Shown: in pieces, positions 3,586 through 33,868 of the stretch
Layout: every line of letters begins with the position of its first letter
Position numbering within the stretch: the stretch's first letter is position 1
DNA from: an uncultured Pseudomonadota bacterium
GTDB taxonomy: Bacteria > Pseudomonadota > Gammaproteobacteria > Competibacterales > Competibacteraceae
DNA length: 38,560 bases
NCBI GenBank assembly: GCA_903844665.1
Contig: CAIMUS010000035.1
Location: 1-38,560 of the forward strand
Reading direction: 5' to 3'
Position numbers and translations under genes: made by a program
The notes under the pieces: model-generated
Told to the model about the DNA's origin: nothing
The model's input: only the letters and a program-made list of their open reading frames with translations
The model's database searches: none

Positions 3586-4362
3586 ATGCACGCCAACCCA
3601 CTTGAAGCCCCTGTGCAAACCGTTATCTACCCCGACAGCGACGGCAAACCGATGGCCGATAACACCCTACAATTCCGCTGGATCGTGACGATTGTCGGCA
3701 ATCTGGAGACCCTGTATGCCGACGACCCTAATGTCTTCATCGCCGGTGATCTGCTGTGGTATCCCGTCGAAGGCAACAACAAAATTCGCAGTGCACCGGA
3801 TGCACTGGTGGCCTTCGGCCGGCCCAAGGGCGACCGCGGTTCCTACAAACAGTGGGAAGAAGGCGGCATCGCGCCGCAGGTGATGTTCGAGGTGCTGTCG
3901 CCGGGCAATACCCGGCGGGAGATGGACGAGAAGCTGGCGTTCTATGACCGCTATGGGGTGGAGGAATATTATCTTTATGACCCGGATCGTGGCCGGCTGC
4001 GGGGCTGGCGGCGACAGCAGGGCCGGTTGGCGGAAATCACGCCGATGCGGGGCTGGGTCAGTCCGCGTCTCGGAGTGCGATTCGACTTGGATGGATTGGA
4101 TCTCTGCCTGACCGGACCGGACGGTGAACGCTTCGCTTCATTTCTTGAGGTCGCCCAGGAAGCCAGGGGAGCCAAGCAACGCGCCGTCGCCGAGTTTATG
4201 GCGCGCCAGGTGGCCGAACAGCGCGCCGAGGCCGAAGCTGCCGCCCGCCGGGAGGCGGATCGGCGTGCAGTAAACGCCGAACAACGCGCCGCCGCCGCCG
4301 AAGCGGAACTCGTCCGCTTGCGTGCCCTACTCGAAAGTCAGGCCGGCGGCCGTTCCATCTGA
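3586..4362 (+). CDS. Uma2 family (DUF820) PD-(D/E)XK nuclease-fold protein
   Basis: I chose the ATG at 3586 because GGAGG lies 8 bases upstream; an earlier ATG at 3556 is in frame but lacks a site and lies in toxin remnant. The 258-aa product has the Uma2 core at about 15-180: SAPDALVAF contains the first acidic site, and FEVLSPGNTRREMDEK with YGVEEYYLYDP gives the E...K part of the PD-(D/E)XK active site. Residues 190-255 are an Ala/Arg/Glu-rich coiled coil, common in proteobacterial members. The biochemical role of Uma2 proteins is largely unknown, though nuclease activity is predicted. Confidence 0.85.
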   Translation: MHANPLEAPVQTVIYPDSDGKPMADNTLQFRWIVTIVGNLETLYADDPNVFIAGDLLWYPVEGNNKIRSAPDALVAFGRPKGDRGSYKQWEEGGIAPQVMFEVLSPGNTRREMDEKLAFYDRYGVEEYYLYDPDRGRLRGWRRQQGRLAEITPMRGWVSPRLGVRFDLDGLDLCLTGPDGERFASFLEVAQEARGAKQRAVAEFMARQVAEQRAEAEAAARREADRRAVNAEQRAAAAEAELVRLRALLESQAGGRSI

Positions 4363-4390
4363 TACCGGCCTTCTGAAGGGAGAACGAATC

Positions 4391-4597
4391 ATGAAGCGCT
4401 ACGGTTATTGGGTAATAGTGGGGTTGCTGTGCTTGGGCGCTGTCGCTCATGCTCAGGAGCAGAAAGTAGCCGGCGTAGCCTGGATGGAGCGGAGCTTGCA
4501 TCTTCTCAAAACGCACTCTATCCAAGACCCAGTGAACGGCATTCTCAAAGCCCCAGCAACCGTTCCAGATAATGGATATTCATCCCCCCCTCGATGA
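4391..4597 (+). pseudogene. Exported-protein gene fragment broken by a dispersed repeat
   Basis: A GAAGGGAGA site precedes ATG 4391. The first 19-20 residues are a textbook signal peptide (MKRYGYW, then VIVGLLCLGAVAHA, cleavage after AHA). Eight codons later the frame enters a dispersed REP-like repeat at 4468 and then runs into the 3' end of accC on the other strand, stopping at 4597. The C-terminal part has no protein-like pattern. The parent gene has probably lost its body, and only the leader is left. Confidence 0.6.
4468..4499 (+). repeat. Dispersed repeat shared with 23189-23220
   Basis: A 32-base sequence beginning AGCCGGCGTAGCCTGGATGG recurs at 23189-23220 with a single mismatch. The second copy continues into GAAGCGCAATCCAGG, which completes a palindrome of the GTAGCCTGGAT...ATCCAGG type. 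This copy lacks that right half and interrupts the signal-peptide gene. Confidence 0.75.
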
Positions 4598-5885
4598 AAC
4601 CGGCGTCGCTGAGAATCCGCCGATGCAGGGGGACATTGGTTTTAATCCCCTCTATCACCAACTCCGCCAGGGCGGTGCGCATCCGCGCCAGGGCGGTGGC
4701 TCGATTCTCGCCGTGGGCGATCAATTTGCCGATCAGAGAATCGTACTGGGAAGGCACCCGGTAGCCGCTGTAAATATGCGAATCCACCCGGATGCCCGGC
4801 CCGCCCGGCGGATGATATTGGGTAATCAGGCCGGGCGAAGGCAGGAAAGAGTCAGGATCTTCCGCGTTGATCCGGCATTCCAGCGCATGACCGGTGATAC
4901 GAATGGCGTCCTGGGTATAGCTCAGGGGTTCGCCGGCGGCAATGCGTAATTGCTCCCGGACGATATCCGCGCCCGTGATCATCTCCGTTACCGGATGCTC
5001 CACCTGCACCCGGGTATTCATCTCGATAAAATAGAATTCGCCGTCCTGATAGAGAAACTCGAAAGTGCCGGCGCCGCGGTAGCCGATCCGCTGACAGGCT
5101 GCCACGCAGAGCCCACCGATATGCCGGCGTTGCTCCGGAGTAACACCAGGGGCGGGGGCTTCCTCGATCACTTTCTGGTGACGGCGCTGCATGGAACAAT
5201 CCCGCTCCCCCAGGAAAATCGCATCGCCGTGGGTATCGGCCAGCACCTGGATCTCGATATGACGGGGATGATCCAGATATTTCTCTATATAGAGCGTATC
5301 GTTGCCGAAGGTGGCCTGGGCTTCGCCGCGGGTCAGGGCGATGGCGTGCAACAGGGCGGCCTCGCCGTGCACCACCCGCATGCCGCGCCCGCCGCCGCCG
5401 CCGGCCGCTTTAATGATCACCGGGTAACCGATCCGGGCCGCCAACTCCAGATTGGCCGCGCTGTCATCCAGCAGGGGACCGTCGGAACCGGGCACGCAGG
5501 GCACGCCGGCGGCGCGCATCGACTGAAGGGCGGAGATCTTATCTCCCATCAGCCGGATTGTCTCCGGCCGCGGACCGATGAAGATAAAGCCGCTCTGCTC
5601 CACCCGCTCGGCGAAATCGGCGTTCTCCGCCAGGAAGCCATAGCCCGGATGGATGGCCACGGCGTCGGTGACTTCGGCGGCGCTGATCAGCGCCGGCATA
5701 TTGAGATAACTGCCGCTGGCGGGCGGAGGACCGATGCAGACGGTTTCATCGGCCAGCAGCACATGCTTCAAATCCCGGTCCACGGTGGAATGCACCGCCA
5801 CCGTCTGAATACCCAGTTCGCGACAGGCCCGGAGAATGCGCAGCGCGATTTCGCCGCGATTGGCAATGACGACTTTATCCAGCAT
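4545..5885 (-). CDS. accC: Biotin carboxylase subunit of acetyl-CoA carboxylase
   Basis: The 446-aa product matches the usual length of about 450. It carboxylates the biotin of BCCP with ATP and bicarbonate, the first committed step of fatty-acid synthesis in the cytoplasm. The N-terminus is [20 protein letters not shown]. The ATP-grasp domain has the glycine-rich loop [13 protein letters not shown] (about 160-172) and the catalytic region [14 protein letters not shown] (about 288-301). It lies 28 bases after accB in an aroQ-accB-accC operon. In many gammaproteobacteria prmA follows accC; here a gene fragment and a Uma2 gene do. Large antisense frames over this gene are shadows. Confidence 0.98.
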
Positions 5886-5913
5886 GGCGACGCTTCAGGG
5901 TGGGGGAGGGAGC

Positions 5914-6378
5914 TTATTCCAGCAGAAACAGCGGCTGGTCGTATTCCACCGGCTGGCCGTCTTCCGCCAGAATCCGGGTAATGACGCCGGCCTGATCGGC
6001 CTCGATTTGATTGAACATCTTCATCGCTTCGATGATGCAGATGGCGTCGCCCACGGCCACGGCCTGGCCGATTTCCACCAGGGGCTTGGCGCCGGGCGAA
6101 ACCGAGCGATAAAACGTGCCGACCATGGGCGAGCGCAAGGGCCGACCTTTGGGCGGTGCTTCGACCGGCGGTAATGCAGGCGAGGCCTCGACCACCGGCG
6201 CCAGCGGCGCGGCAACGAAAGGGTTATAACCGACCTGGGAAATCGGGATATGCATCACCGTCGGCGTCGGGGCATGCCGGCTGATCCGCACGGCTTCCTC
6301 GCCTTCCTGGATTTCCAGTTCGGAAATCCCGGATTCTTCAACCAACTCAATCAGTTTCTTGATTTTCCGAATATCCAT
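5914..6378 (-). CDS. accB: Biotin carboxyl carrier protein of acetyl-CoA carboxylase
   Basis: The 154-aa product carries the covalently bound biotin that shuttles between AccC and the carboxyltransferase. The N-terminal helix is [20 protein letters not shown], a Pro/Ala-rich linker spans about 45-80, and the biotinyl domain at 80-154 has the EAMKM signature (lysine near residue 120). It starts 11 bases after aroQ and 28 bases before accC, so co-transcription is expected. Length and layout are normal. Confidence 0.98.
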
Positions 6379-6389
6379 GGCAGGGTCTT

Positions 6390-6836
6390 TCAGGAACGGT
6401 TGGCGAGCCGCCGGTCGGCGGCCTGAATGGCCAGTTCATAACCCTGGGCGCCCAGACCGCTGATCACGCCGACGGCGACGTCCGATAGATAGGAACGATG
6501 GCGGAACGGCTCGCGGGCGAATACGTTGGACAGATGGACTTCGATAAAGGGTATGCCGACCGCGAGCAGGGCGTCACGCAGGGCGATGCTGGTATGGGTG
6601 TAGGCCGCCGGATTGATCACGATAAAATCCACCCTCTCGCGGTAGGCAAGATGAATTCTTTCCACCAGTTCATGCTCGGCGTTGCTTTGGAAAAACAGCA
6701 GTGCATGCCCCAGCGTTTGCGCCAGCGCTTCACAACAGCAGCGGATATCGTCCAGCGTGGTGGAGCCGTAGACCGTAGGTTCGCGGGCGCCGAGCAGATT
6801 GAGATTCGGGCCGTTGAGGATAAGCAGCTTGGCCAT
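6390..6836 (-). CDS. aroQ: 3-dehydroquinate dehydratase, type II
   Basis: The enzyme dehydrates 3-dehydroquinate to 3-dehydroshikimate in the shikimate pathway. I place the start at ATG 6836, giving 148 aa beginning [20 protein letters not shown], the normal family start; a longer frame up to 6971 adds an unlikely N-terminus. Conserved elements are the NGPNLNLLG loop with the catalytic Tyr shortly after (TVYG), [21 protein letters not shown] and the histidine of EVHLSN. It is the first gene of the aroQ-accB-accC group, 193 bases after dsbD. Confidence 0.97.
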
Positions 6837-7029
6837 GTGGGTAAACACGGTTGTCCATAGAAGGCAGGGCGGTGATTCTGCCGCAAAGCGGCGGGATTGT
6901 CCAGGAAGACGGCCAGGAAAACGGCAGGATCGGCGCAAATAGCCGCCGGTTGCCGGCAAATTGCTACCCATTATTTCATCTGCTCAGCCACGAGAGCGGA
7001 CGACGGGTTACGCCCGTGTGCTTTGTGGT

Positions 7030-12201: not shown

Positions 12202-12484
12202 AGTACCGGCGCTCCTCACGGGTCGCTTTGCGGGCGGAAATCAAACGGATACAGTCATCCTCCAGCAGCAGATGTACTACGAACAAGAGACGGGTGGAGT
12301 GGTCGCTGCCGATGATCGCGTCACGGGCTTCGTCATGGCGACCGGCGTCGACCACTTTGAGGAAGGGATCAAAGAATGCTTCTGCCGCCTGTTCGAAGGG
12401 CACGCCATGCTTGCGCAGGTTGCGGCGCGCCTTGTCGCGATCGGCGACAAACCGAATGCCGTGCCGCGCAAATTCGATGTCCAT
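12188..12484 (-). CDS. brnT: BrnT-type toxin (RelE-like ribonuclease)
   Basis: The 98-aa product matches BrnT (DUF497) in length and order: an N-terminal strand, DKARRNLRKHGVPFEQAAEAF, FDPF, then the DAGRHDEAR segment, and the C-terminal RLISARKATREERRYYED, where the Arg-rich strand and last helix are the usual signature. BrnT cleaves mRNA and inhibits translation. The toxin comes first, as is normal for brnTA. No frameshift is seen, so this is the one intact toxin gene of the local cluster. Confidence 0.85.
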   Translation of the reverse strand: MDIEFARHGIRFVADRDKARRNLRKHGVPFEQAAEAFFDPFLKVVDAGRHDEARDAIIGSDHSTRLLFVVHLLLEDDCIRLISARKATREERRYYEDG

Positions 12485-12490
12485 GCACGA

Positions 12491-12523
12491 AGCTTAGCGA
12501 AGTGTATTTACATTGTCAATACA
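12491..12523 (-). promoter_or_regulatory. Probable brnTA promoter with operator-like palindrome
   Basis: On the minus strand a perfect TTGACA (12519-12514) is followed after 17 bases by a weak -10, TAAGCT (12496-12491), only 6 bases from the brnT ATG, which implies a very short leader. The -35 is embedded in an imperfect palindrome, TGTATT...AATACA (12503-12523), a plausible BrnA operator. AT-richness here contrasts with the surroundings. Confidence 0.45.
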
Positions 12524-12593
12524 TATTGTTGGCACTGGAGGTGGCATTCGCCGCAGTGCAGGTCGGGCAAAGACGTGCCCGGCCTACCGGGCT

Positions 12594-14261
12594 TCAACGT
12601 CCCCCCGACCCCAAGGCAGCCTGTCCCTTTTCGATAGCCGCCAGCAACGCAGCGCTATTCCCTTCTTCAATCGCCGTCAGCATGTCTGGCAGCCAGGTGT
12701 GGGCAGCCAAAGCGGGCTGTTGACCGATAAAGTGTTTTGTACCCGTAAAAATCCATCCGCCAACCGCGTCAGGTTTGGCGGCGACGGCTTCATGCAATGC
12801 TGTCAACTTGGATGGAAGGGCGCTCTTCTCGTCGAGGGCCAACAGCGTGGCGATCTCCAGAGCTTGCAGGACGATCCGGGTCTGAGGTTCAATCTCCGGC
12901 TTGGCCAGTAAATCCGCCAGACGGGCTTTGGCTTCTGCAAAGCGGCCGGTAACAAAGTGGGTCTCAACCAGGTTAGCCTGAGTCTTGGCCCAATAGTAGG
13001 GCAGATGCTCACGGGTTCTCACCTCCAGGGCGTGACGGTAGGCGGCCACCGCCTCCCCCAGCAAGCGCGGCCCTGCCTCCCCACCGGTGCGGATGCCTTG
13101 CGTCTGCAACGCATTCCCCAGGTTGTTCTGGGTCATGGCCCAGTCCTGCGGCAACTGCTCGCGGGTATAAACCTCCAGGGCGTTACGGTAGGCGGCCACC
13201 GCCTCCCCCAGCAAGCGCGGCCCCGCCTCCCCGCCCGTCCGAATCCCTTGCTCCCGCAACGCATTCCCCAGGTTGTTCTGGGTCGCGGCCCAGTCCTGCG
13301 GCAACTGCTCGCGGGTATACACCTCCAGGGCGTGGCGGTAGGCGGCCACCGCCTCCTGCAGATGTTGCTGGGCAGCTTTTCCCTCTACACGAATGCCAAG
13401 TTCCAAGTTCGCTTTTCCAATGTCACTGAACACCGTCGCCCACAGAAGCGGTTGCCTTTCCCTGGAAACATAGCCCAGCGCCCGCTGATAACTCGCCAGC
13501 GCCTTATCAAAATCATAATTGTTGTAAGCCGCATCTCCGGCCAGCCGGAAATCCCGGACGGTTTCTTCGGTCAGCGTCTGTTCTTGCTGCCGCACGGCTT
13601 CCAGGCGTTCGGCCTTGGCGTTACCCGCTTCCTCGAACAGGTCATGCGCTTTGCCAAATTTCTTCTCGGCAAAAGCGGCCAGACCGAGTTTGGTGAGATC
13701 GTCCTGATTCTTTTGCACGTCGGCGACCCATTTGTCGATTTCCGCCCTGGCTTCCTGCGGACTGAAACCGTACTTGGCCGCCCAGTCCTTGATATACCGG
13801 CTGAAATCGATGTTCTTCGGACTGCCTTCCGTCCGCACCTGTTGCCTGGTTTGCTCCGCCATGTCCTGGATGAATTTCTCAATCCGATCGTCCGACCAGA
13901 ATTTCCTGGAGCCGACCGGCAGCAGCCGGATTTCCACCTGTTCCTTTTCCAGGTCAGCGGGAACGCGGGCTTCTCCCTCCAGCGGGTATTGAATGCGCCA
14001 GTCCGGCTTATTCACCAACAGCGTGATTTTCTCTCCGGCCTTGTACACATCCGGCAGAAACAGCCGAAACAGCCCCTGTGCCTTGGTGCGGACCGTATCC
14101 CCCCGTTCCTTGAACGTAATCTCGACGCCTTCTTCCACCGCGACGGTTTCGTCATGCTCTTTGACCAGCACCACCTGACCCTTGAGCAGGCGCTCTTCGG
14201 CCAGCAGCAGCGCCGGCAGCAACAGCAGAACTCCCAGGATGATCGGATAACGCTTCTTCAT
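12594..14261 (-). CDS. Exported TPR-repeat protein, partner of TIR protein
   Basis: The 555-aa product starts at ATG 14261, overlapping the TIR gene stop by 4 bases, with a strong GAGGAGG site. A signal peptide (MKKRYPIILGVLLLLPALLL) is followed by a beta-sandwich-like segment (25-115; LKGQVVLVKEHDETVAVEEG, then LFRLFLPDVYKAG). A charged helical linker follows, then TPRs at about 235-450 with near-identical units around AVAAYRHALEVYTREQLPQD and TQNNLGNAL. Such TPR units often sense or scaffold effectors. The product is probably periplasmic, which is odd for a partner of a cytoplasmic TIR domain. The DNA repeats near 13020-13350 are about 126 bp and almost identical. Confidence 0.75.
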   Translation of the reverse strand: MKKRYPIILGVLLLLPALLLAEERLLKGQVVLVKEHDETVAVEEGVEITFKERGDTVRTKAQGLFRLFLPDVYKAGEKITLLVNKPDWRIQYPLEGEARVPADLEKEQVEIRLLPVGSRKFWSDDRIEKFIQDMAEQTRQQVRTEGSPKNIDFSRYIKDWAAKYGFSPQEARAEIDKWVADVQKNQDDLTKLGLAAFAEKKFGKAHDLFEEAGNAKAERLEAVRQQEQTLTEETVRDFRLAGDAAYNNYDFDKALASYQRALGYVSRERQPLLWATVFSDIGKANLELGIRVEGKAAQQHLQEAVAAYRHALEVYTREQLPQDWAATQNNLGNALREQGIRTGGEAGPRLLGEAVAAYRNALEVYTREQLPQDWAMTQNNLGNALQTQGIRTGGEAGPRLLGEAVAAYRHALEVRTREHLPYYWAKTQANLVETHFVTGRFAEAKARLADLLAKPEIEPQTRIVLQALEIATLLALDEKSALPSKLTALHEAVAAKPDAVGGWIFTGTKHFIGQQPALAAHTWLPDMLTAIEEGNSAALLAAIEKGQAALGSGGR

Positions 14262-15061
14262 TTTTTCCTCCTCAAGGTGAAACTGATCTGCGTATTCCCC
14301 AGCGTAGTGTATTGTTCAGAAGTTTGATAACCGTCTTTCCGGGCCAGCAATTCCACCTGCGCCTGATGCGACGCCTTGTCCACACGCAACTGGAAATGCC
14401 CGAAGGTATCGGTCGTGGCGCTTACGCCAAGCGCCGGCAGGGCAACTTCTACGCCCACTACCGGGTCGTTGGCCTCGTCCCGAATCGAGCCGGCCAGCAC
14501 TTGCTCCGCCTGTCCGTTTAATGAAAGGTATAGCACAACGCCGGTGAGGATGCTCAGAAGCAGCAGGGCGATCAGCAGGGGTTTGAAGCGCCGTCGCCGG
14601 ACTTCGTCGGGAAACTTTCCCAAAATAGTCCTGGCGACTTTCAGAAACACCTGTTCCTGTTCTCCCGGCGGCAAACTGACCAGCGGCCGGGCGGGATCGT
14701 TGACCGCCTGGAAGCGGGCCAACTCCGGCGTGTCCCGAAACAGGCAGGGGCTGACGATCACCGGCAGAATGATAGCGCCGTCCCGTTCGGCGGCCTCCAG
14801 CAGGGGTGGCAGTTCATGCTCGGCGATGTAATCCGAGGCGAGAAAATCCGCGCTGATCAGCAACACCGCCACCTTGGTGGACGCCAGCGCCTGGCGAATC
14901 TCCTCCTGCCAGTTCGAGCCGGGCGCGATACGGGTATCGTCCCAGGGGTCCACCACACCCGCCCGCTCCAGCGGCTTGAGGTGCACTTGCAAGCGCTCCA
15001 GCCATTGCTTGTCCCGATGGCTGTAACTGATAAAGACCTTATTGCGGGGTGGGGATGACAT
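14258..15061 (-). CDS. TIR-domain protein with membrane anchor and beta-sandwich domain
   Basis: I use ATG 15061 (267 aa); a TTG two codons upstream is less likely. The TIR domain at about 7-150 starts KVFISYSHRDKQWLERL and includes DDTRIAPGSNWQEEI and the AVLLISADFLASDYIAEHEL segment, whose Glu is the likely NADase catalytic residue. A membrane helix (about 163-185, PLLIALLLLSILTGVVLYL) follows, then a carboxypeptidase-regulatory-like beta sandwich (190-265; GSIRDEANDPVVGVEV, GHFQLRVD). TIR would lie in the cytoplasm and the sandwich in the periplasm. The downstream TPR gene is translationally coupled. NAD hydrolysis or signalling is inferred from the family only. Confidence 0.85.
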   Translation of the reverse strand: MSSPPRNKVFISYSHRDKQWLERLQVHLKPLERAGVVDPWDDTRIAPGSNWQEEIRQALASTKVAVLLISADFLASDYIAEHELPPLLEAAERDGAIILPVIVSPCLFRDTPELARFQAVNDPARPLVSLPPGEQEQVFLKVARTILGKFPDEVRRRRFKPLLIALLLLSILTGVVLYLSLNGQAEQVLAGSIRDEANDPVVGVEVALPALGVSATTDTFGHFQLRVDKASHQAQVELLARKDGYQTSEQYTTLGNTQISFTLRRKK

Positions 15062-22408: not shown

Positions 22409-22431
22409 ATCAATGGAGGCAAAGGGCACAG

Positions 22432-22524
22432 TATAGTCCTGCTAATTGATATCAAGACATTTTTCTAATGCCAAGTTTCAACTGAACTATTAGCAATATA
22501 CGAATCATAATTAGCGGAATTATA
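22432..22524. mobile_element. MITE-like element, copy 1 (about 93 bp)
   Basis: The ends TATAGTCCTGCTAATT and AATTAGCGGAATTATA are imperfect terminal inverted repeats. The interior is AT-rich (ATTTTTCTAATGCCAAGTT) and matches copy 2 at 22663-22760. No coding capacity. Elements like this are moved by a transposase in trans. Confidence 0.6.
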
Positions 22525-22640
22525 TCTGCGTGATCCCTTCATCAGCGTCAATCTGCGGTTCAGACCTTGTTAATCCGCAGTCTAAACTCTGTCACCCTGT
22601 CTGAACCGCAGATTGACGCAGATTAAAGGATTACACAGAT
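22524..22640. repeat. Long hairpin between the two MITE-like copies
   Basis: A perfect 21-bp inverted repeat (22545-22565 with 22599-22619; core CAATCTGCGG) is extended on both sides by imperfect pairing, ATCTGCGTGATCCCTT (22524-) with AAAGGATTACACAGAT (-22640), around a 33-base loop. Together with its flanks it makes a nested composite palindrome of about 330 bp. Confidence 0.85.
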
Positions 22641-22662
22641 GAAAAGATAGCGGTGATGAATC

Positions 22663-22760
22663 TACAGTCCCGCTAATTGAGATCAGGATATATTTTTAAT
22701 GCCAAGTTATTAATCAATTTAACCATTAGCAATGTATGGATCATAATTAGCGGGACTATA
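22663..22760. mobile_element. MITE-like element, copy 2 (about 98 bp)
   Basis: The ends TACAGTCCCGCTAATT and AATTAGCGGGACTATA are near-perfect inverted repeats. The interior matches copy 1 (ATCAGGATATATTTTTAATG, then CCAAGTT, CATTAGCAATGTATGGATCA). Same orientation as copy 1. Confidence 0.6.
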
Positions 22761-22813
22761 GCTACCGAAACTGAAAAACTCTAAGAATCAGGATGTTGGG
22801 ACACTCAACTACT

Positions 22814-23481: not shown

Positions 23482-26400
23482 TCAAACTTTTAAGCTATCC
23501 CAGGAAAGCATTTTTGCCAGACAGAACCCAGGCCGATGCAAAATATCAAAAGTATTACAACACGGCAGCATCTCGACCCCTCTATTAAATTCTTCTACCA
23601 GTTCCTGTATCTGAGGGTGATTATTTGACCAGAGCGGATGAGTAATAACAGCTCGCAACTCATCTTGGGCCTTTACAATCCGAAAATCTTTAAAAGTCCC
23701 CGGCCCTGCTCCAGGAATCGCAGCTTCAAGCGATTTGGCAGCACGATCTGGCAAGCCTTGCCAGTAAGGTTGGTTGAAATCGATCTGAGCATCTGCATCA
23801 GCGGCAAGTTGCGCCAAATCAAGTCCCAGCCGCCAGTCAAGCAGGGGATGCATATCTGAGTTATTATAATCACGCAAGCAGTCGTAACAGGAGCTGTCGC
23901 AATTCTCAGCATGGCGACTATCGAGCAGCCGCTCATAAAAGCGTCCGCCTGGCAGTAAGGTCTTAATAATGGCTTCAGACAGTCGCTGGGGGTCAGCCAG
24001 ATGATGGCAGTAACCGGCTCCGTTTTCCAGCGCATCTACCAGGAAGACCTCATATACCACCTGTCCATTAGCGTCTCTGATGAGTCGAAGGTTCATGTTT
24101 AGCTCACGAGGATCGACATCAAGATAGTCGCAGGCTGCTTTCCGCAGCAGATGTCCCCAAGAATAATAGGCTGCTCGCACGTAGGCGCGTTGTTCACCGG
24201 TCGGGTTCAGATCGAGCGCGCCGGGAATCTGGCTTAAACGCAGCAACAACAAGTCAGTATGTTTGGATGATATTAATCCCACTTTTTCTTTTTGTGTTTG
24301 TAGAGGGATTTGATTACTCCAGTTTCCTTCAGGTTTAAGTTTGTTACGCACAACCCAGATGTTTGCATGAGCCAACTGTTCGAAGTAAAACAGTTTACCA
24401 TCATTATCATTAAGACTGATTACTTCAGGTTCGTCAGTATAATAGATAAGATTATGGTCAACAGGGCCATCCAAATCGTGTGACTGTTCCAAACTGAGGC
24501 GGGCGTTTGTGGCGCGGGGAAGCCAGTCGAACTGTCCGTCAAAGTCCCGTTCTGCCCCCGGTTCGACAGTGAAACCGAGTGGTTCCCACGTTTCGATCTG
24601 CTGATACTGAGGTGAGTTGGCCGCGCAAACCGGGCAGACTTCCGACAAGCCGTTGCTCAGTGTCCCACAGTTCTTACACGTTCCCAGCCGGCGCTTATGA
24701 CCACGGCCATCAACAGCTTGTACCCGCCCGCGTTCCCTGACGTAATGAACCAGACCAACTGCTGTGTAAACCGTCTTGTCTTTGACTGTTTCACTGCCTG
24801 GTGCAAACTGGCTGATAGCGATATCCAGATCGCGATCAATGGCATGCTTGGGCGGCAGGTCTTTGGGAGGATGTTCCTGATATAGTACACGGACACGAGT
24901 GGGAAACCCAAACATGGGCAGCAACCCTGCATTAGCCAGGCGCTCGCTCAAAGCGCTGTGTGGATAACGCTCAACATCTTCTGCAATCTCGTCGATCTTT
25001 AGGATCAGATGATAGCGCACATCGTCGAGCAAATGCTGGCGTTCTTGGTTCAGTTTTGTGCGCCTTAGCAAGGCCTCCAGAATCCGCTCGATTTGCGCTG
25101 GGTGAGTGTTGATCCAGATCTGTACCTCCGCCCGATATTTGGGCCAGTCACGGGCTTTGCCAAATTCACCATGAACGTTATCGGTACGACCCTGGTCACT
25201 CAATTCATCAACTTTGCCAAATGCTTCCCGCAGGACTTCCTTGATGAGCATCCGCCGCAGAATCTTCTTGCGGCGAACATCCAGGTATGGCGTTGGTGGC
25301 GGCGAGGACACGATACGTTGAGGATCGACGAAATGAGTTTCGTCATGGCTGCGTCCGCGTGCAACGGTCAAAGCGATTGACAATCCCTCCCCACGCCGTC
25401 CAGCCCGACCGACCCGCTGCTGATAGTTAAAACGCTGAGGCGGTACGTTGCCGAGCATGACTGCCAGGAGAGCGCCAATATCCACGCCCGCTTCCATAGT
25501 AGTGGTCACACTGAGCAGATCAATGGTATCAGCCAGCTTAATCTCACCCGGCAGACACAAATCCTGGAACAGGCGTTGCCGGGCGGTAGAATCATCCTTA
25601 TTAGTTTGCCCGGTAAGTTCCTCACAGTGCAGGCGGAATGGCTCACACGTTTTAAAGGCCAAGTAGGTGTAGTAATCCTGCTCGTCAGAGTCAACTTGCC
25701 GGACTGTAAGTTGCTGTGGGTTCTCTGGCAGCGAGGCGTAGCAGTTGGTACACAGACCAAGCCCCTTATGGAGATGTTTGGTGGCGCATTTCTCACAAAT
25801 CCAAACTGGATCGCCAGTTCCGGCTGGTTGGAACCAAAGCGCATCTGGATCAAGCAGAAAGTGTTCATCGATAACTTGGTGGTCCTGTAAATGATCGCGC
25901 AAACATTCCAGCCACTGGTCAGTTAGATTTTTATGTTGGATGTAGCGCTGGATGTAATTACGCAGTGCGCGTGGAAAAGATTTGGGTAACCAGCGAAACT
26001 CCACACCTTTGAAACGCCGTCGTTCACCCAGCAGGCGCAGCGCGACATCCACAAGTTCTGCAAAGTTCTGCGGGTTGAGACCAGCCGGCAAAACAGACGG
26101 TTTAAGATGAGGATTAATCCGCATCCAGCCTAAAGCCAGCGACTCGACGGACTTGCGCTTATGCGCGAAAAACGTAAACATGCACTCAGTCAAACAACTG
26201 TCTTGTAATTTTGTAAGGAAGCTTCGCTGATCTGACAGTAAATCGCCCGATTGCTTTTCACGAGGAGGAAAAGGTTCCCAGTTGATCAGTTGCTTCCAGG
26301 AGCGATTATTTTGTTCCAGGCTGCTCTGCTTAGGCCCACCCGGATTACAGCCTAATTCGAGCAATGTCTGCCAGACATGTTTATCTACGGCAGTTAGACG

Positions 26401-28938
26401 AAAGGGTCCGTTGGCTCTTTCGCGTAATCGGGTTACCCGCTGGTTATCGTCCTTGCTGGCCATACTGTCACGCATATTACGGATGGCGTCCGCATCATCG
26501 TGGAACTGTTGCATGAAACGCTGCCAAGCCTGGCGTTCCTCTTCACTTAGGTTCTGCGGTCCGTCATCAAGGTACTTCAGCGCCACTCCAAAGTCATCGC
26601 CCAACTGATTGAAGCCACTTATCAGTGCCTGGCGAACCAGATCACGGTAATGGTCCAGTTCGATACCGGCAGCAAGCTTCGCAGCATCCTGGCGGCTGTC
26701 AGTGAAGATAATCAATTTGCGGTGATCATCTCTCATTTGACGCATCAATCCATCTGCCAGTACCTGATTGACTTTTTGTACACCTGTGCTGTGCACGCCA
26801 ATGACTTTATAACGGCTTTGCCCCCAATCAGCACCGCAACGGGGGCACTTATCCGGAAATGCCGAAGGCGGTTCAGTCGCATCCTCCGACTGCTTGATTT
26901 TAGCATCCTCCGACTGCTTAATTTTATAGACCCAGCCGTTAGGCGGCACGGCCCTAACTTCCAATGAGCCAGAAGTGGGCTCCAACTGTGCCAAGACCCA
27001 TCGCATGGTGTTATCATCGCCTCTCCATTCAATGTCAAGTGGCTTGTCTCGACCAGGCCAGAAGACTGCATACTCTTGATGATATCTTTCACCCAGTGGC
27101 CGGGCATGTTGGGATTCGAAATCAGGTTGTTCATGAACCAGATATTGATATTCACCATTTCTGGCATGGCCACGATAATACCCTCCCAAGAAAATCTCAC
27201 CACAATTGCGACATACAAGTAAATCAAGCACCCGCGAACCACATTCACAAACCAGCCTTGGCATACTGTACAGTTTACCCACCTGCCTCTCAGAATTGCG
27301 CCCCGGTTGATCCTGTTCAAGTGCGGTGCAGGCTGGATTACTGCAAGCCCAAAGGCCAGGTATGTTGCGGAAAAACAGATGCTGACGAATGAGTAACGGC
27401 GCCAAACCAGTGGTATCGCGGGCGACTGTCAAAGCAAGCAGTAGTCCTCTTACTGTATCAAGCTCTACACCAGAGCCGAATACACGGTTGGCTAGCTCAG
27501 TCGGTGTTTCAGGTTTACGATGATAATTTTCTGTGATTGCCAGGATCGCATCAGCATTTTGTAAAACCTCTGCTAGAGCTACCTGTGGCTCAGTTAAGGA
27601 ATCTGGAACTGCAACTGATAGCTCTTTAGCCAAACGGTTTATTGCGTTGAGAGGATCAGCCTTCCATTCATCAGGAAAAGACATAAAAGCAGTCGCTTTG
27701 TGGTGCAGTGGTTTAGGCTGTCCAGGCGCAATAAGATTTGGTTGCCCACCAATCAAAGCAAACTTTTCAGCGAATTGCTTAGTATCTTGACTATTCGCCT
27801 CAACACCAAAAAAAGAGCAAATATAGTCCCTACTGGCCTCGTCCTCTTCAAGCGAGGCACTGGATGCCAGAAAACGTATCTGGGGTGAATCAGGAGCTAG
27901 GCCAAGCCGATATAGTAATAGCCGAATGAGATAGGAAACCTCGGTACCGGCAGTACCGCGATATGAATGTAGTTCATCGATCACCAAGTGGAAAATGCGC
28001 GTTGGGTGACCATATTGCCGAGGTGACTTGCGCCAGGGATCTTCAGCCAACCAGTCCTTAGTTTGGTCAAAAATCGGCGCTTCAATTTGCCGCATCAACA
28101 TGATATTAAGCATGGAATAGTTGGTGACCAGCAAATCAGGGGGTTCGCTTTGCATAGTCCAACGATCCCAACACTCAGCCCAGGACTGACCGTTGTCGTC
28201 CAGGCTGGGAAACTGGTAGCGCAGAATGGGGTTATTGCTTACTTGTCTTGCCTGACGAACCAGCCTGTCCCGCTCTTCTTTTAGTTCATCCTGCTTGCTT
28301 TTCGATTTTCTACCAGCCACCGGGGTACGCCCGGTATAACGTCCGAAATAAAAGCGATGACCGGAGCGATACTGTTCCAACCAACTACGTGCACCAGGAC
28401 GATGAGGCATGTCCACACTGTCCATAGTCCGGCGTAACCGTACCATTTGATCTTCGGCCAGTGCATTGAGAGGGTAAAGCAATAAGGCGCGCAACGCTCG
28501 TGGGCGACTCTTTTGCCAACTGGCGGATTCGCGTACCAAGTGCTCAAAAATCGGCAGTAGAAAACACTCAGTTTTACCTGAACCGGTGCCAGTGGTAACG
28601 ATGAGGTGACGATGCTCTACAGCCACGGCGCGTAGCGCTTCGTCCTGATGGCGGTATAGCTGGCGGGGGCGACCTTCATCGCTGACGAAAAGACCACGTT
28701 CGCAGAAGTCGGCAAACTCAGTCGAGAGACCTAATTTCCTGGCTGCGGTACGCAGAGAATCTGTCTCTTTGTAACGCGGCACCAGTTCGAGCAACGGTTC
28801 CTGAAACAGTACTCCCGGTTCTTCATAAAGCCGTCGCCGCTCTTTCATCAGCCGTTCATCCCGCAACGGTAGGGCGCTATCCAGATATTTTAGATAGAGT
28901 GCCTGTAGATTACTGGCGATTTCTAACGGATCATTCAT
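23482..28938 (-). CDS. Giant DEAD/DEAH-box helicase with DUF1998-like C-terminus (DruE-like)
   Basis: The 1,818-aa product is the last gene of the operon; its ATG overlaps the preceding stop by 8 bases. Motifs in order: a Q-like segment [14 protein letters not shown] (92-105), Walker A TGTGSGKT (116-123), motif II DELH (321-324) followed by [20 protein letters not shown], motif III SSAS (359-362), a late [13 protein letters not shown] (about 1141-1153) and motif [15 protein letters not shown] (about 1171-1183). Cysteine clusters that may bind zinc lie near 531-584, 704, 1046-1064 and 1419-1436, and [14 protein letters not shown] near 1680-1693 is the DUF1998 (MZB) signature. Length and architecture resemble Druantia DruE; DISARM DrmA is shorter. 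It probably translocates on or unwinds invading DNA. No nuclease domain is visible in it. Confidence 0.93.
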
Positions 28939-29194
28939 CGTATATCTCCAACTTTAATGCCAATATGCGTGCTACCTGGCGGGCTTTATATTTGCTGATT
29001 TCGGAGTAGCAAAGATAGTACTGACTATCTCGCCACTCTACAGTAGGACACAATCCACTGGCCAACCTCAACGGACGGTCGAGTAGTAATGGTAACGGCC
29101 ACCCTCCCCTCGGCAAGTGGATATACAACTGTGAAGAGCGCACTTGGTAGTGCAACTTTCCGCACTTACTTTTTCCAATCTCGTCAACGGGCAA
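28931..29194 (-). CDS. 87-aa ORF, possible C-terminal part of the 252-aa gene
   Basis: The frame opens with TTG 29194 (no clear ribosome-binding site) and overlaps the end of the 252-aa gene by 11 bases in a +1 frame. Its stop overlaps the helicase start by 8 bases (ATGAATGA), which shows that this frame is translated into the helicase junction. The sequence is protein-like: [20 protein letters not shown], then [14 protein letters not shown] and [19 protein letters not shown]. It may be a separate subunit made by reinitiation, or the C-terminus of the 252-aa protein split by a frameshift. Confidence 0.6.
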
Positions 29195-29942
29195 CGTAAT
29201 TCAATTCAGGTTGATCCAGCAGAACTGTTGTTGTACCTTTGCCATCAGGATGCCGCTCAAAAATGAAACAGGCATAATTGCTCTGCTCACGGGGTCGATA
29301 TAAACCTTCAGGAAGTGGTTGGCGTAATTGAATGGGTTGCCAATGTAGCTGGCTGGCCGGGCAAAACTGCTCCCACTGCCCATGCTGCGGGAACTGGCAT
29401 GGCTCCAGATGCGCTATAGCCTGAGCCAGAGTTGGCAGACTGGCCAGCAATTCGTCACTGCGATCCGGGTATACCTCAACCGACAACGCCTGTTCCAACG
29501 CCGCTAATACGTCGTCAGTAGCCATCTCAATCTGCCAGCGTGTAGGGCCATTATCTTGCCCAGTCTGCGACAGCGTTGCGCCGCAGGTTTGGCAAACAGT
29601 ATGGAACTGCTGCCAGAGAGAAGTACTGCGAGCACCGTACAGGCGCAGCACGCTGCGATTTTCGTTAACAACAGTTCGGATAGCCACTGGCGGGATAAGC
29701 ATCCAGCGATCCTGTGCTATCTGCTCTACATGACCAAGCCGATAAAGCGGATCAAATAGCTGATAGCGCCAATGGCTCTGTGAGAGTTTCTCAGCACCTT
29801 GGACCTGTGCCAACATACCAGTAGATTCAGCCAATCTACGACAATTCAATGTTAATGTGGTGGTGCTCAACGATGGCTCCGGTCTTGCACTAAGCCACGC
29901 CAGTAACAAGTCGTGAGGACCACTTAAATTACTCGTCGTCAC
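29184..29942 (-). CDS. Unrecognised operon protein, 252 aa
   Basis: The start is GTG 29942, inside the last codons of the 688-aa gene (14-base overlap), so translation is coupled. No signal peptide or membrane segment is seen. It opens LLLAWLSARPEPSLSTTTLT and has a mixed alpha/beta pattern: a Cys pair CQTCGAT near 132, WQIEMATDDVLAALEQALSV near 155, and a beta-rich end (YACFIFERHPDGKGTTTVLL). The N-terminal 90 residues could be a winged-helix-like unit. The function is unknown; by position it should act with the helicase. Confidence 0.65.
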   Translation of the reverse strand: MTTSNLSGPHDLLLAWLSARPEPSLSTTTLTLNCRRLAESTGMLAQVQGAEKLSQSHWRYQLFDPLYRLGHVEQIAQDRWMLIPPVAIRTVVNENRSVLRLYGARSTSLWQQFHTVCQTCGATLSQTGQDNGPTRWQIEMATDDVLAALEQALSVEVYPDRSDELLASLPTLAQAIAHLEPCQFPQHGQWEQFCPASQLHWQPIQLRQPLPEGLYRPREQSNYACFIFERHPDGKGTTTVLLDQPELNYVAR

Positions 29943-31995
29943 GGCGATTAAGCTTCATGTAGTCTTCGGGCCAACGACAGCGAATTTGACGAGCTATATG
30001 CGCTGGATCATCATGTTGCCCGAAGTTCTCCAACACCTGTTGCAATCGCAGCAAGTCGCCGGCTATCAACCGGGTCGCTGGTCCCGCCACCTCTGATTCG
30101 GCCGGCAGCGTTGGTATTGATGCCAGCGGTGGACCGCACCAGCACTGCCAAGCTTCCAGGGGAACGTAGCCATTATAGAGCGTTGGTACCTCTGCCGGTG
30201 CCTTGCCGATACGATTGAACGGGACCGCTGCGAAGTACCTTACCACTTGTTCGGCCAACGGATAACTTGCGCTGTCAGTAGCGACTGTCAATAACAGGCG
30301 CAAATTTTCAGGCCACGGGTATTGGCCCGCCGTATCGAGTGTTTGCCGAAAACCAGCCAATAAATTCAGCAACGGCCGTGCCCAACACTCTGGTAGTGAG
30401 CGGTTTATGTCCTGCAAGACCAACAGGTAAAGATGATGTCTGTCCTGAACCGCCTCAGACCAAAACTGTGAGAAATCTTTGTTGAATGCATCTGCAAAAC
30501 TTAACCAAGTTGGCTCAACCTCATGGATCTGCAATCGACTGGTTACCCCTAGAGCTTCTTGATAACCAATTGCCCATGCACAACTTGGTACCAGCAGTGC
30601 TCGACAAGCAAGCAGTGTGTAATGAAATAGCTCAACCCAACGCAATGTAACATTAGGAAGCCATTGTAAAAGCGCTGGAAACAAACGTTCGTTAATAAAC
30701 AAGTCGCAGTTCTCGATAGGAACAGTTAGTTCATCGATGGGATATGCGGGAGGTTTCCCACCAGCACTCTCTTTAGGTATCGATGTTTCAACAATAGTAT
30801 CATGTTGTCCAGTTGCACTGAGCAATGTCTGGAAAGCGGTAAACTCTATTACCAATTGACTTTGCTGCTGACGAAGAAATTCTGCTGCCTCGAGTAGTTG
30901 TGCTTTTTCTTGCTGCAATTTCACATTTTGAACTACGACCTCTTCCTTGATTTCCTCCAGTTTTCTATTTTGTTTCCCAATCTCCTGCTTAAGGTTGTTC
31001 ATTATCATAACCGTCTCTTCTTTTTCCCGCTCACGTTTTTGTTGTTCAAATGCACAAAACTCAACTGTTTCTTGTTCAGCCTGAAGACAAATTTGTTCTC
31101 TGTAAGGAGCCACAGCTTGCTCCCATTTTTCCTGAAAAATCGAATTTTGCCTTAGCTGCTCAAACTCCCTTTGTTCAATAACCAGGTATTGCAATATCTC
31201 ATCGATATGTTTCCACCGGCTTAAAAATATTTTTTGCTTGGTTTGATCGTTAATCTGGGTGAAATAATTTATTAGTTGGTTTCTCCAATTCGGGCATTGC
31301 CCATCAAGCTGTTCTATGACCTGGGCAACAATATTAGAAGCATAGGGTAACTGTTCCAAAAACCATTTAACTTGTTTTTCACCACTCGCTACATCAACAG
31401 ATTCAGCTATACTTTGGGGTAGGTCTGGTAAGACATACTCCCTTGTTGCTTCGTCCTCTTTTACTTGAACCAAGCTAAGGGGATTAATCTTTGAGCGTGG
31501 ATAGCGGTAAACTAGATCTGGTGTATCCTTTGGAGAAAGGAAATAACTTGATTGATTGTATTGTACACGCCAAGGGCCAATCAGTATGTCTTCTTCCGAG
31601 TTGTAAACATAAACAATACTTCTTTCGGGGACGCCTTTGATCCAACGTGGTTCGTTGCTCCAATTTGCTTCTGATTCGTCCACTACAAAAGCACCAAAAG
31701 GCTCGATTGCCAAACCTCTACCATCAGGTTTACTAGCAACAATATGTGAGTCTTTATCTGAACCTGCTACGGGCCTAGAATTCGAAGTGATATCAAAGCG
31801 AACTAATGCACGATCTGTTAGGCCAATTCGAGCAATCGGTACTCGGAGGAATACCTTATCTGTTGATCCAATTTCTTCAGAAATATCAAAAGACTTATCA
31901 CGAATCCACCTATTTCCGTCTTTAATTAAACGTGCAAAAACAGTAATTCGAGCACATCCACTGTATAGCTCACGTACTTGTCCAAAATAACGCAT
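29929..31995 (-). CDS. Coiled-coil protein with degenerate McrB-like AAA+ domain (putative)
   Basis: The 688-aa product starts at ATG 31995, with GGAGGTG directly after the stop of the 619-aa gene. The N-terminal 180 residues are beta-rich (ITVFARLIKDGNRWIRD, VFLRVPIARIGLTDRALVRF). Residues about 305-385 are a long coiled coil (EEIKEEVVVQNVKLQQEKAQ). The C-terminal part (about 445-640) has the order of an McrB-type AAA+ domain: a helix ELFHYTLLACRALLVP where the P-loop should follow, VEPTWLSFADAF, LYLLVLQDINRSLP (Walker-B-like with Asp/Asn/Arg) and LLLTVATDSASYPL (sensor-1-like). No GxxGxGK(T/S) is present, so ATP binding is probably lost. This is inference from pattern only. Confidence 0.6.
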   Translation of the reverse strand: MRYFGQVRELYSGCARITVFARLIKDGNRWIRDKSFDISEEIGSTDKVFLRVPIARIGLTDRALVRFDITSNSRPVAGSDKDSHIVASKPDGRGLAIEPFGAFVVDESEANWSNEPRWIKGVPERSIVYVYNSEEDILIGPWRVQYNQSSYFLSPKDTPDLVYRYPRSKINPLSLVQVKEDEATREYVLPDLPQSIAESVDVASGEKQVKWFLEQLPYASNIVAQVIEQLDGQCPNWRNQLINYFTQINDQTKQKIFLSRWKHIDEILQYLVIEQREFEQLRQNSIFQEKWEQAVAPYREQICLQAEQETVEFCAFEQQKREREKEETVMIMNNLKQEIGKQNRKLEEIKEEVVVQNVKLQQEKAQLLEAAEFLRQQQSQLVIEFTAFQTLLSATGQHDTIVETSIPKESAGGKPPAYPIDELTVPIENCDLFINERLFPALLQWLPNVTLRWVELFHYTLLACRALLVPSCAWAIGYQEALGVTSRLQIHEVEPTWLSFADAFNKDFSQFWSEAVQDRHHLYLLVLQDINRSLPECWARPLLNLLAGFRQTLDTAGQYPWPENLRLLLTVATDSASYPLAEQVVRYFAAVPFNRIGKAPAEVPTLYNGYVPLEAWQCWCGPPLASIPTLPAESEVAGPATRLIAGDLLRLQQVLENFGQHDDPAHIARQIRCRWPEDYMKLNRRDDE

Positions 31996-32008
31996 TATCT
32001 CACCTCCA

Positions 32009-33868
32009 TTAACGTCTGGCCCGTTTAACTGCTTTTAACAAAGTACGCACAAGCGGGTGATTAGGTTCCTCGATAGAAGGCTGTAACCACGATGCTTTTG
32101 CACCACCACGCAATTGCAATATTAGTTTGATTGCCTGACGACGTATGTTCGTTGCTGTTTTGGGTACTGTAGGCCATTTTCCAATGATGACCGATCCGCT
32201 TAATCGCCCTTCAGTTGCTGTTAAATTATCATGCGACTTCAGCATCAGCCGGGGCCAACCCTGATTCATCCAACTCCAACCGGAAGGTAGGGCTGTGTAT
32301 GCTCTTGTTAGCTCCGGCTGTTGTACCTCGACGCGAAGTGGTTTATGGCCGGGAAGAGCAACGACATGTACCCCAGGATTGTTCAGAGCAGGTGCTTGCA
32401 TGGGAGTTAAACAGTTATTGTTTATTCGATAGATCTCCCTATCAAGACGCAATTCATGAACCAATTCCTGAAGATTTATCCGTATATACGGTCCCGCCCC
32501 TGCCATCCAGACTGATCTATGCAAACGCAGCCCGCCAACAGGCTCCATCACCTGTCTGTCAGAACGAATGATATCGTACCAAGGGCCTGCTGTCCATTGA
32601 TCCAATATTGGCTTTTCTTTGGCTGTGCAATGTACCGCGCACCAACCCGCTGGCAACCCTGCAAGCGCTAAAACCTCCTTTGACTGCTTATCGCTTGACC
32701 TCCTGAACCACTGTACTGAATCAGCAACTTGGTGTAAACCGTTGCACCATTTTGTGCGATCTGCTGCCGGCACCAACAGAATCAGATCGTCACCTGGCCG
32801 GGCATGTCGTCTCTCAATCCAACGCTCGGAAAATTCATCGTAAACCGTCAACCACTGATTTTTCCGAATTGGCCTATATACATATCCGTGCTCAGGGTCA
32901 ATTATTTCAGGTTGCCGATAGAGTTGCGAGAGTAACTCTGCAAGAGAGACTCCTTGCATAACAGTGCGGATCAGATTAACTGACTGTTCAGCCAGTCCAC
33001 CGGTTAGGGATGATACCTGTGGCCCATCGCGAAGCTGTAGCCACAGGCGTAATGCGCCGCCTTCCCTTACCCATTCTCTACCTAAATGATGTTTGCTGCC
33101 AGCAATGATTCCAGAGTTTCCATCCCAACGCCGGAGGATTCGAGCAATCTGCTCGCAGGCGGCGTCAATCCTATCCGGATCATCCAGTACCCGTTGTGCA
33201 TGGCGGTGAAAATAATCTTTGTACGTACTGATTTGTTCTTTAATATATTCTGGATCATCTTCTCCGGATCGAAGACCAACATAGCTAAAAAATGCCGGTA
33301 GAGTTTCCAAATCAGCTTGGCGTAACAGCGCCTGAGATTTCGGCAACCTGATATAGCGTCCTGGCCCATGTCTGTCCACTGGCAATCTTATAAAGCCAAG
33401 CGCTCCATGCAAAAGATTATTGGCCCAATGCTCCAATCCATCCCGCCATAAAGCTAAATGTGCCTCACCAGTCAGATTTAGTGGCATAGCTTGCTGGCAG
33501 TTAGGATCGAGCATTTCCCGCAAGCGCGGCCAATAGGCATTATCACTCCAATATTCATCATCATGCATATTGGCAACAGCCAGCACCTGCACGGCTAACT
33601 GAGCCAGGAAACACGGATAATTTTTTATATTTTCAGGAAGTTTTCCTACCACCCAACCCTTTCGTTGTAACTCAGCCCGAACCGCTGTGACCAAATTCTG
33701 TTCAGCTTGCTCAGGTGAGTCAAATGACATTGGTGGATTAGCGCTTTCAGCTATAAGTAAAAGAATGTTTTTTTCGATTGACAGGAAAACAGTTTCACCA
33801 GCATACTCTGGGCGAAAGAAGTAACAACTAATTGCAGTGTTCCAAATATTATATTCGTTAGTACCCAT
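32009..33868 (-). CDS. Unrecognised first protein of the helicase operon, 619 aa
   Basis: ATG 33868 is the furthest upstream start and has only a weak ribosome-binding site. The protein has no signal peptide or membrane helix. The N-terminus (NIWNTAISCYFFRPEYAGET, then VFLSIEKNILLLIAE) is mixed alpha/beta; the middle is helix-rich with many Trp and Arg (LREMLDPNCQQAMPLNLTGE, WANNLLHGALGFIRLP); the end is beta-rich. The next gene starts 13 bases after its stop. The family is unknown to me. Its base composition is lower in GC than the flanking metabolic genes, as in the rest of the operon. Confidence 0.65.
   Translation of the reverse strand: MGTNEYNIWNTAISCYFFRPEYAGETVFLSIEKNILLLIAESANPPMSFDSPEQAEQNLVTAVRAELQRKGWVVGKLPENIKNYPCFLAQLAVQVLAVANMHDDEYWSDNAYWPRLREMLDPNCQQAMPLNLTGEAHLALWRDGLEHWANNLLHGALGFIRLPVDRHGPGRYIRLPKSQALLRQADLETLPAFFSYVGLRSGEDDPEYIKEQISTYKDYFHRHAQRVLDDPDRIDAACEQIARILRRWDGNSGIIAGSKHHLGREWVREGGALRLWLQLRDGPQVSSLTGGLAEQSVNLIRTVMQGVSLAELLSQLYRQPEIIDPEHGYVYRPIRKNQWLTVYDEFSERWIERRHARPGDDLILLVPAADRTKWCNGLHQVADSVQWFRRSSDKQSKEVLALAGLPAGWCAVHCTAKEKPILDQWTAGPWYDIIRSDRQVMEPVGGLRLHRSVWMAGAGPYIRINLQELVHELRLDREIYRINNNCLTPMQAPALNNPGVHVVALPGHKPLRVEVQQPELTRAYTALPSGWSWMNQGWPRLMLKSHDNLTATEGRLSGSVIIGKWPTVPKTATNIRRQAIKLILQLRGGAKASWLQPSIEEPNHPLVRTLLKAVKRARR

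Follow-up and report, generated by a model that had tools for sequence, protein, structure and literature searches.

A Druantia operon of the type IV lineage encoding a probable, strongly divergent DruG-like protein between its druF and druL genes in an uncultured Competibacteraceae bacterium

The described defence systems closest to the operon reported here are the Druantia types IV and II. Type IV, introduced by the authors of PADLOC in 2021, comprises DruE and DruF with DruL, without DruM and DruG (PMC8565338). The type II gene set is DruM, DruF, DruG and DruE. PMC12458937 (Bell et al.) treats types I and II as type IV CoCoNuT and reports that both encode inactivated homologues of CnuB, a McrB-like GTPase, with a coiled coil in type II; we infer that the DruG of type II is this inactivated CnuB homologue. 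The helicase DruE is common to all subtypes, and the authors of PMC13192584 propose that it forms the core of the systems and that its activation is set by its partners. The operon lies on the minus strand at positions 23,482–33,868 of a 38,560-nucleotide (nt) stretch (contig CAIMUS010000035.1 of assembly GCA_903844665.1, referred to in full length as the window) from an uncultured Pseudomonadota bacterium of the family Competibacteraceae. It is probably a Druantia of the type IV lineage (DruF, DruL and DruE) with a strongly divergent DruG-like protein encoded between DruF and DruL, and hence a mosaic of types II and IV. It is not a new system; it is a known type with an extra divergent subunit, so far a single case. 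Its open reading frames (ORFs) are as follows, with lengths in amino acids (aa).

32009..33868, minus strand: druF, 619 aa, first operon gene; PADLOC model DruF4 (PDLC00054), E 5.5e-29 over residues 5–255, and seven further DruF models.
29929..31995, minus strand: probable DruG-like protein by profile comparison, 688 aa; an N-terminal region is followed by a coiled coil and then by an AAA-like C-terminal region that lacks Walker A.
29184..29942, minus strand: druL, N-terminal three quarters, 252 aa; PADLOC model DruL4 (PDLC00057), E 1.1e-9, profile positions 3–210 of 309.
28931..29194, minus strand: druL, C-terminal quarter in the next frame, 87 aa; PADLOC model DruL4 (PDLC00057), E 7.7e-5, profile positions 256–307 of 309.
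23482..28938, minus strand: druE, 1,818 aa, helicase of superfamily 2 (SF2) and the YprA family with MZB/DUF1998; PADLOC model DruE4 (PDLC00051), 1639.7 bits.

A preliminary description of this DNA, made from the sequence alone, had listed five coupled minus-strand ORFs with a gap of 13 nt followed by overlaps of 14, 11 and 8 nt, and these coordinates, lengths and spacings were all reproduced. The ORFs are thus real, whereas the count of genes is not: the 252- and 87-aa ORFs together make up one DruL, so that the operon counts four genes, of which druL is broken or split, and a reading as five separate genes was rejected. The same description called the operon Druantia-like, which the profile matches of the helicase, DruF and DruL bear out, and also stated that no partner of the helicase resembled a Druantia component. 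The latter does not hold, since the 619-aa protein is DruF, with matches to eight PADLOC DruF models, the best of them (DruF4) over about its first 250 residues, and the 252- and 87-aa ORFs together are DruL. In addition, when phmmer was run on a small set of Druantia proteins, the 619-aa protein matched the DruF encoded on a plasmid of Nostoc sp. C052 (E 3e-27). Pfam and NCBIfam gave nothing above cut-off for any of the four partner ORFs. With DruF, DruL and DruE present, the window contains every component published for type IV.

The helicase carries TGTGSGKTE at residue 116, DELH at 321, RVGRAGRRG at 1175 and seven CxxC motifs, and its Pfam matches to DEAD (55.3 bits), Helicase_C (28.2 bits) and MZB (25.8 bits against a cut-off of 24.2) all lie above cut-off, in agreement with the Walker motif, cysteine clusters and DUF1998 signature noted earlier; MZB is the MrfA zinc-binding domain, in the DUF1998 region. 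No phospholipase D (PLD) nuclease was found in it by Pfam. As a YprA-family helicase it also resembles DrmA of DISARM (E 1e-14) and DpdJ of Dpd (E 2e-15). However, these scores correspond to about 50 bits, against 1,640 bits for DruE4, and the window protein unites helicase and DUF1998/MZB in one chain, unlike DISARM, in which the DUF1998 module resides in the separate DrmB. Neither DrmB nor DrmC occurred among the PADLOC matches listed (the best 25 of 33 families for the helicase, all for the other ORFs). Membership in DISARM or Dpd was rejected on the score gap and the one-protein architecture.

For comparison, related loci were collected from plasmid searches with DruE (20 records matched) and with DruG (5 records), and from genome searches with DruE4 at E 1e-150, which gave matches in 3 of 398, 4 of 340 and 2 of 367 genomes; these samples overlap, and the genome of the window is itself among the matches of the first two. 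From the DruE plasmid matches, Haloplanus was left out, and Sinorhizobium meliloti and Methylobacterium entered through the DruG search as L040 and L041. Four loci were not counted by type: L019 (type I, with DruA and DruE; used as tree outgroup), L045 (DruE in pieces), L046 (type unclear; first tree only) and L006 (3.3 kilobases (kb) only). The 23 loci classified besides the window fell into three groups. DruF, DruL and DruE follow each other directly (F-L-E) in ten: L009–L014, a locus on contig C306 of the same genome, L023 (its DruF weakly matched, E 2.6e-4), L051 and L052. DruF and DruL are fused in four (L015, L016, L024 and L054), and nine have DruF-DruG-DruE (L017, L018, L020, L040–L044 and L053), with a separate check of DruF in L040–L044. 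No DruG-like gene was found in any of the 14 F-L-E or fused loci, either by direct comparison with the 688-aa protein or with a DruG profile. Further scans added little: when 369 genomes of the class were searched with DruF4, the genome of the window alone matched, a DruE scan of genome contigs yielded one short Chloroflexia contig, and a DruE scan of viral contigs returned nothing of use. The C306 locus (L005, 2360–16840) is a second, ordinary type IV locus in this genome, encoding a DruF of 555 aa, a DruL of 438 aa whose N terminus is extended by about 140 aa, and a DruE of 1,917 aa.

In a tree of 25 DruE proteins (16 rows of unusual composition, with L019 on a long branch), the window DruE grouped with those of eight F-L-E loci at 99/99, and the nine type II DruE formed a clade of their own at 100/100. 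Forcing the window into a clade with type II cost 188 log-likelihood units, with a p-value of 2.05e-6 in the approximately unbiased test (p-AU), and type II membership of the helicase was rejected accordingly. An earlier tree of 22 rows had the same outline, with weaker values for the window clade (89/88). The nearest relative is the DruE of L051, at 42% identity. Two F-L-E loci, L013 and L014, lie outside the window clade and closer to type II; F-L-E loci are therefore not one clade. Judged by its sequence, the window DruE belongs to the type IV lineage.

Comparison of profiles revealed how the partner genes of the two types correspond. A profile of ten DruL matched the C-terminal part of the four fused DruF (probability 99.7, positions 744–1045 of 1047) and of seven type II DruF (probability 95.3, E 2.1e-8, positions 579–835 of 880), and a profile of eight type IV DruF matched the N-terminal part of the fused (probability 99.9) and type II (94.1) DruF. 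The DruL profile gave no match to type IV DruF (0.6%) or to DruG (0.1%). Two long DruF2 models of PADLOC were likewise matched by the 252-aa protein in their C-terminal part. DruL is thus the counterpart of the second DruF half and is not peculiar to type IV. By these profile matches, types II and IV share a core of DruF, DruL and DruE, with or without DruG, and in the window each of the four is a gene of its own, the DruG part being probable. This correspondence between DruL and DruF is unreported in the main texts of the open-licence papers searched, where hits for 'drug' overran the query on DruF and DruG.

The two DruL ORFs cover complementary parts of the 309-position DruL4 model. The frame of the 252-aa ORF ends in TGA followed by C, so that the reading frame breaks after DruL residue 252, and the 87-aa frame, one base on, has a stop a few codons ahead of its TTG. 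The joined translations aligned along ten other DruL and the C-termini of three fused DruF; in this alignment the 87-aa piece continues the 252-aa piece and retains the conserved DruL end. Since the frame of DruL is broken, the system may not work, which weighs against reading the operon as a functional Druantia. It is possible, if not the outcome we would expect, that a frameshift broke DruL and left a decayed, non-working locus: DruL is unbroken, alone or within a fused ORF, in 14 of 14 other DruF/DruL loci, and no clear ribosome-binding site precedes the 87-aa ORF or, likewise, the 619- and 252-aa ORFs. On the other hand, druF, druE and the gene of the 688-aa protein are long and undamaged, no stop interrupts the 87-aa piece, which keeps the conserved end, and the 11-nt overlap would permit coupled re-initiation. 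The break may reflect recent damage, a working split protein or an error of assembly, the last being a source that involves no decay.

The 688-aa protein is what sets the window apart from type IV. Neither PADLOC at E 1 nor Pfam and NCBIfam gave a match at or near cut-off, and comparison with solved structures returned only chance-level matches. AlphaFold, a check suggested in the preliminary description, placed a helix or coiled coil at about residues 299–394, and about 311–376 formed the sole long stretch with a predicted local distance difference test (pLDDT) value above 50. After the coiled coil, inspection of the translation revealed a Walker-B-like LLVLQDINRS and, further on, the stretch NLRLLLTVATDSA, with no Walker A. 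Against a profile of nine type II DruG, hhalign aligned residues 477–547 with profile positions 488–564 (probability 80.8, E 1.3e-5), and another alignment of the same nine gave E 4e-5. When the C-terminal 269 residues were compared with the coiled coil excluded, they scored 31.9, versus at most 21.5 in 243 ORF segments, at most 21.9 in 200 shuffles and 14.7 for the reversed sequence. A DruG hidden Markov model (HMM) matched three stretches of the 688-aa protein in DruG order, two of them below zero bits; applied to 381 ORFs, it placed eight type II DruG far in front. These comparisons suggest that the 688-aa protein is probably a distant relative of DruG, in which case the type IV feature of lacking DruG fails in the window.

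Several results weigh against this assignment. The match is weak and limited to about 70 residues; a profile of three DruG gave E 0.0021, and leaving out L053 reduced the match to E 0.011 with a probability of 3.8%, whereas four true DruG left out in the same manner retained E 5.6e-11 to 3.9e-18, so that the 688-aa protein is far weaker. Among the 381 ORFs searched with the HMM, L033 has one with a coiled coil (E 0.03) that outranked the 688-aa protein (E 0.089), and pairwise BLAST with the DruG of L053, from a genome of the same family, was not significant (E 0.16). No homologue was found outside its own genome in plasmids, phages, viral contigs or 40 genomes of the order, a set that includes this genome. 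The AlphaFold prediction, made without homologues, had a mean pLDDT of 39.7 for the whole protein and 35.0 for residues 425–688; beyond the coiled-coil helix it gave no usable model, and the assignment as DruG therefore rests on sequence profiles.

These points would suit an unrelated coiled-coil accessory gene carried as cargo in a plain type IV operon: the similarity spans about 70 residues and falls to E 0.011 without L053, the unrelated L033 ORF ranks higher, and the first 500 codons of the 688-aa ORF have a GC content (guanine plus cytosine) of 0.39–0.44, below the other operon ORFs, as separate acquisition might leave it. We regard this as unlikely on balance, because the score with the coiled coil excluded exceeds all decoys, the N-terminal region, coiled coil and AAA-like region follow the order in DruG, and DruG is the known type II partner of these genes. 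The lack of a PADLOC match is no argument against DruG, since two of the five type II DruG scanned (L042 and L053) had none at the limits used. Weak matches of the DruG model in 12 of 398 genomes (best E 6.2e-5) were read as coiled coil, because they are located on that part of the model. As a separate observation, the type II locus L053 encodes, at 12355–14826, an 823-aa, highly divergent DruG that goes unseen by the PADLOC DruG models.

A divergent DruG-like subunit in a type IV-lineage operon differs from a true type II Druantia (DruF-DruG-DruE) whose DruF has been split into DruF and DruL. In favour of the latter, the coiled-coil protein resembles DruG, and the window DruF and DruL together cover type II DruF, to whose C-terminal part DruL matches. 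Nevertheless, it is very unlikely: the window DruE falls in the type IV clade and outside that of type II, with the type II grouping rejected at the p-AU given above, the best match of DruF is the DruF4 model, and the 688-aa protein is much farther from type II DruG than were the four tested DruG from the rest. The window also departs from type II in having DruF and DruL separate, in the order F-G-L-E in place of FL-G-E, and in the absence of a methyltransferase among the 15 window proteins scanned with Pfam, where DruM was likewise not found, as the preliminary description had stated. From type IV, to which the DruE4, DruF4 and DruL4 matches and the DruE tree assign it, the window differs in its extra DruG-like gene and its DruL in two ORFs.

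That the operon is a separate, undescribed defence system with only its helicase in common with Druantia is hardly credible: the 688-aa protein has no family match of note, but three of the other four ORFs match DruF or DruL, the helicase matches DruE4, and the tree places it in a type IV clade. The preliminary description had raised a separate subtype or a new system and had named profile matches of the partners to Druantia as evidence against this; PADLOC found Druantia families for four of the five ORFs, so a wholly new system was rejected, and what remains of the proposal is the departure of the 688-aa ORF from the published type.

The reading of the operon as type IV-lineage Druantia with a DruG-like protein can be extended to a single II/IV family with an optional DruG pseudo-GTPase scaffold, in which the window would be the link on the side of the type IV clade, with gene order F-G-L-E, a DruG missed by current models, and a two-piece DruL made by coupled re-initiation or by frameshifting at TGA-C. 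Taken as a whole this is rather unlikely. If DruL is a detached half of DruF and DruG is optional, the subtype definitions in defence annotation tools need redrawing, and results would be transferable between subtypes II and IV. The compared loci indicate that current DruG models overlook divergent members.

Phage defence is the most likely function of the operon, by analogy with its relatives. The DruE of Druantia III engages DNA containing 3' single-stranded DNA (PMC13192584), and a second group reports that DruH-DruE blocks the circularisation and replication of phage DNA (PMC13316683). For types I and II, Bell et al. predict that DruE ends in an inactivated Vsr domain (PMC12458937). In the window operon, DruE, as an ATP-driven DNA translocase of the YprA/MrfA family, would load onto single-stranded stretches of replicating or newly entered phage DNA and then block its processing or replication. 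DruF and DruL, which form one polypeptide in type II and in the fused variants, may jointly sense infection and regulate DruE, and the DruG-like protein may act as a scaffold without ATPase activity that holds DruF/L and DruE together. Because no PLD domain was found in DruE by Pfam and the Vsr domain of types I and II is predicted to be inactivated, interference driven by translocation would be expected, not cleavage by DruE. A point against this picture is that the open-licence literature searched held no experiment or mechanistic study on type IV.

The ORFs of the operon have a GC content of 0.445–0.522 and a GC content at third codon positions (GC3) of 0.385–0.545, below the three flanking genes (nitroreductase, histidine kinase and DUF3301; GC 0.60–0.62, GC3 0.72–0.77), as had been noted before. 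The palindrome-rich boundary of the preliminary description is likewise real, at 22.4–23.4 kb, with a best pair of 42-nt arms (22524–22565 and 22599–22640). However, the part of this stretch that was searched (22430–22770) matched at 82 genomic sites, of which the window contains three; it is therefore a dispersed repeat family outside the operon, and the palindrome was rejected as an operon part. The palindromic repeat with 42-nt arms sits within a duplicated unit at 22432–22763. Two relatives with a similar nitroreductase were considered for an empty site, and in them the nitroreductase and DUF3301 genes lie on different contigs.

Matches to PF00145 in this genome were confined to contig C50, where they are clustered. 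Among the F-L-E loci of the window's DruE clade, three (L051, L052 and L023) have a C5 cytosine methyltransferase adjoining DruF or one gene off, and the published contrast of a type IV without methyltransferase is thus not general. In L051 (12459–17546) and L052 (2256–8231), the C5 cytosine methyltransferase and an HhH-GPD (endonuclease III-like) gene precede F-L-E.

Other genes adjoin the compared loci. In L051, two genes come immediately after DruE (3700–6851), one with a SIR2 domain and one whose weak match to Piwi stays below cut-off, possibly a short-Argonaute system next to Druantia. Downstream of the C306 locus and in the same orientation lie a gene for a GNAT protein, part of which weakly resembles DpdA, then an ORF of 287 aa and a gene for a 1,153-aa AAA-domain protein. 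Related proteins of 733 and 655 aa (E 2.5e-144) follow the fused DruF-DruL and DruE in L015 (12205–14406) and L016 (11779–13746), respectively; the 655-aa protein has weak NERD/UvrD- and GajB-like matches, and the pair is possibly another accessory subunit.

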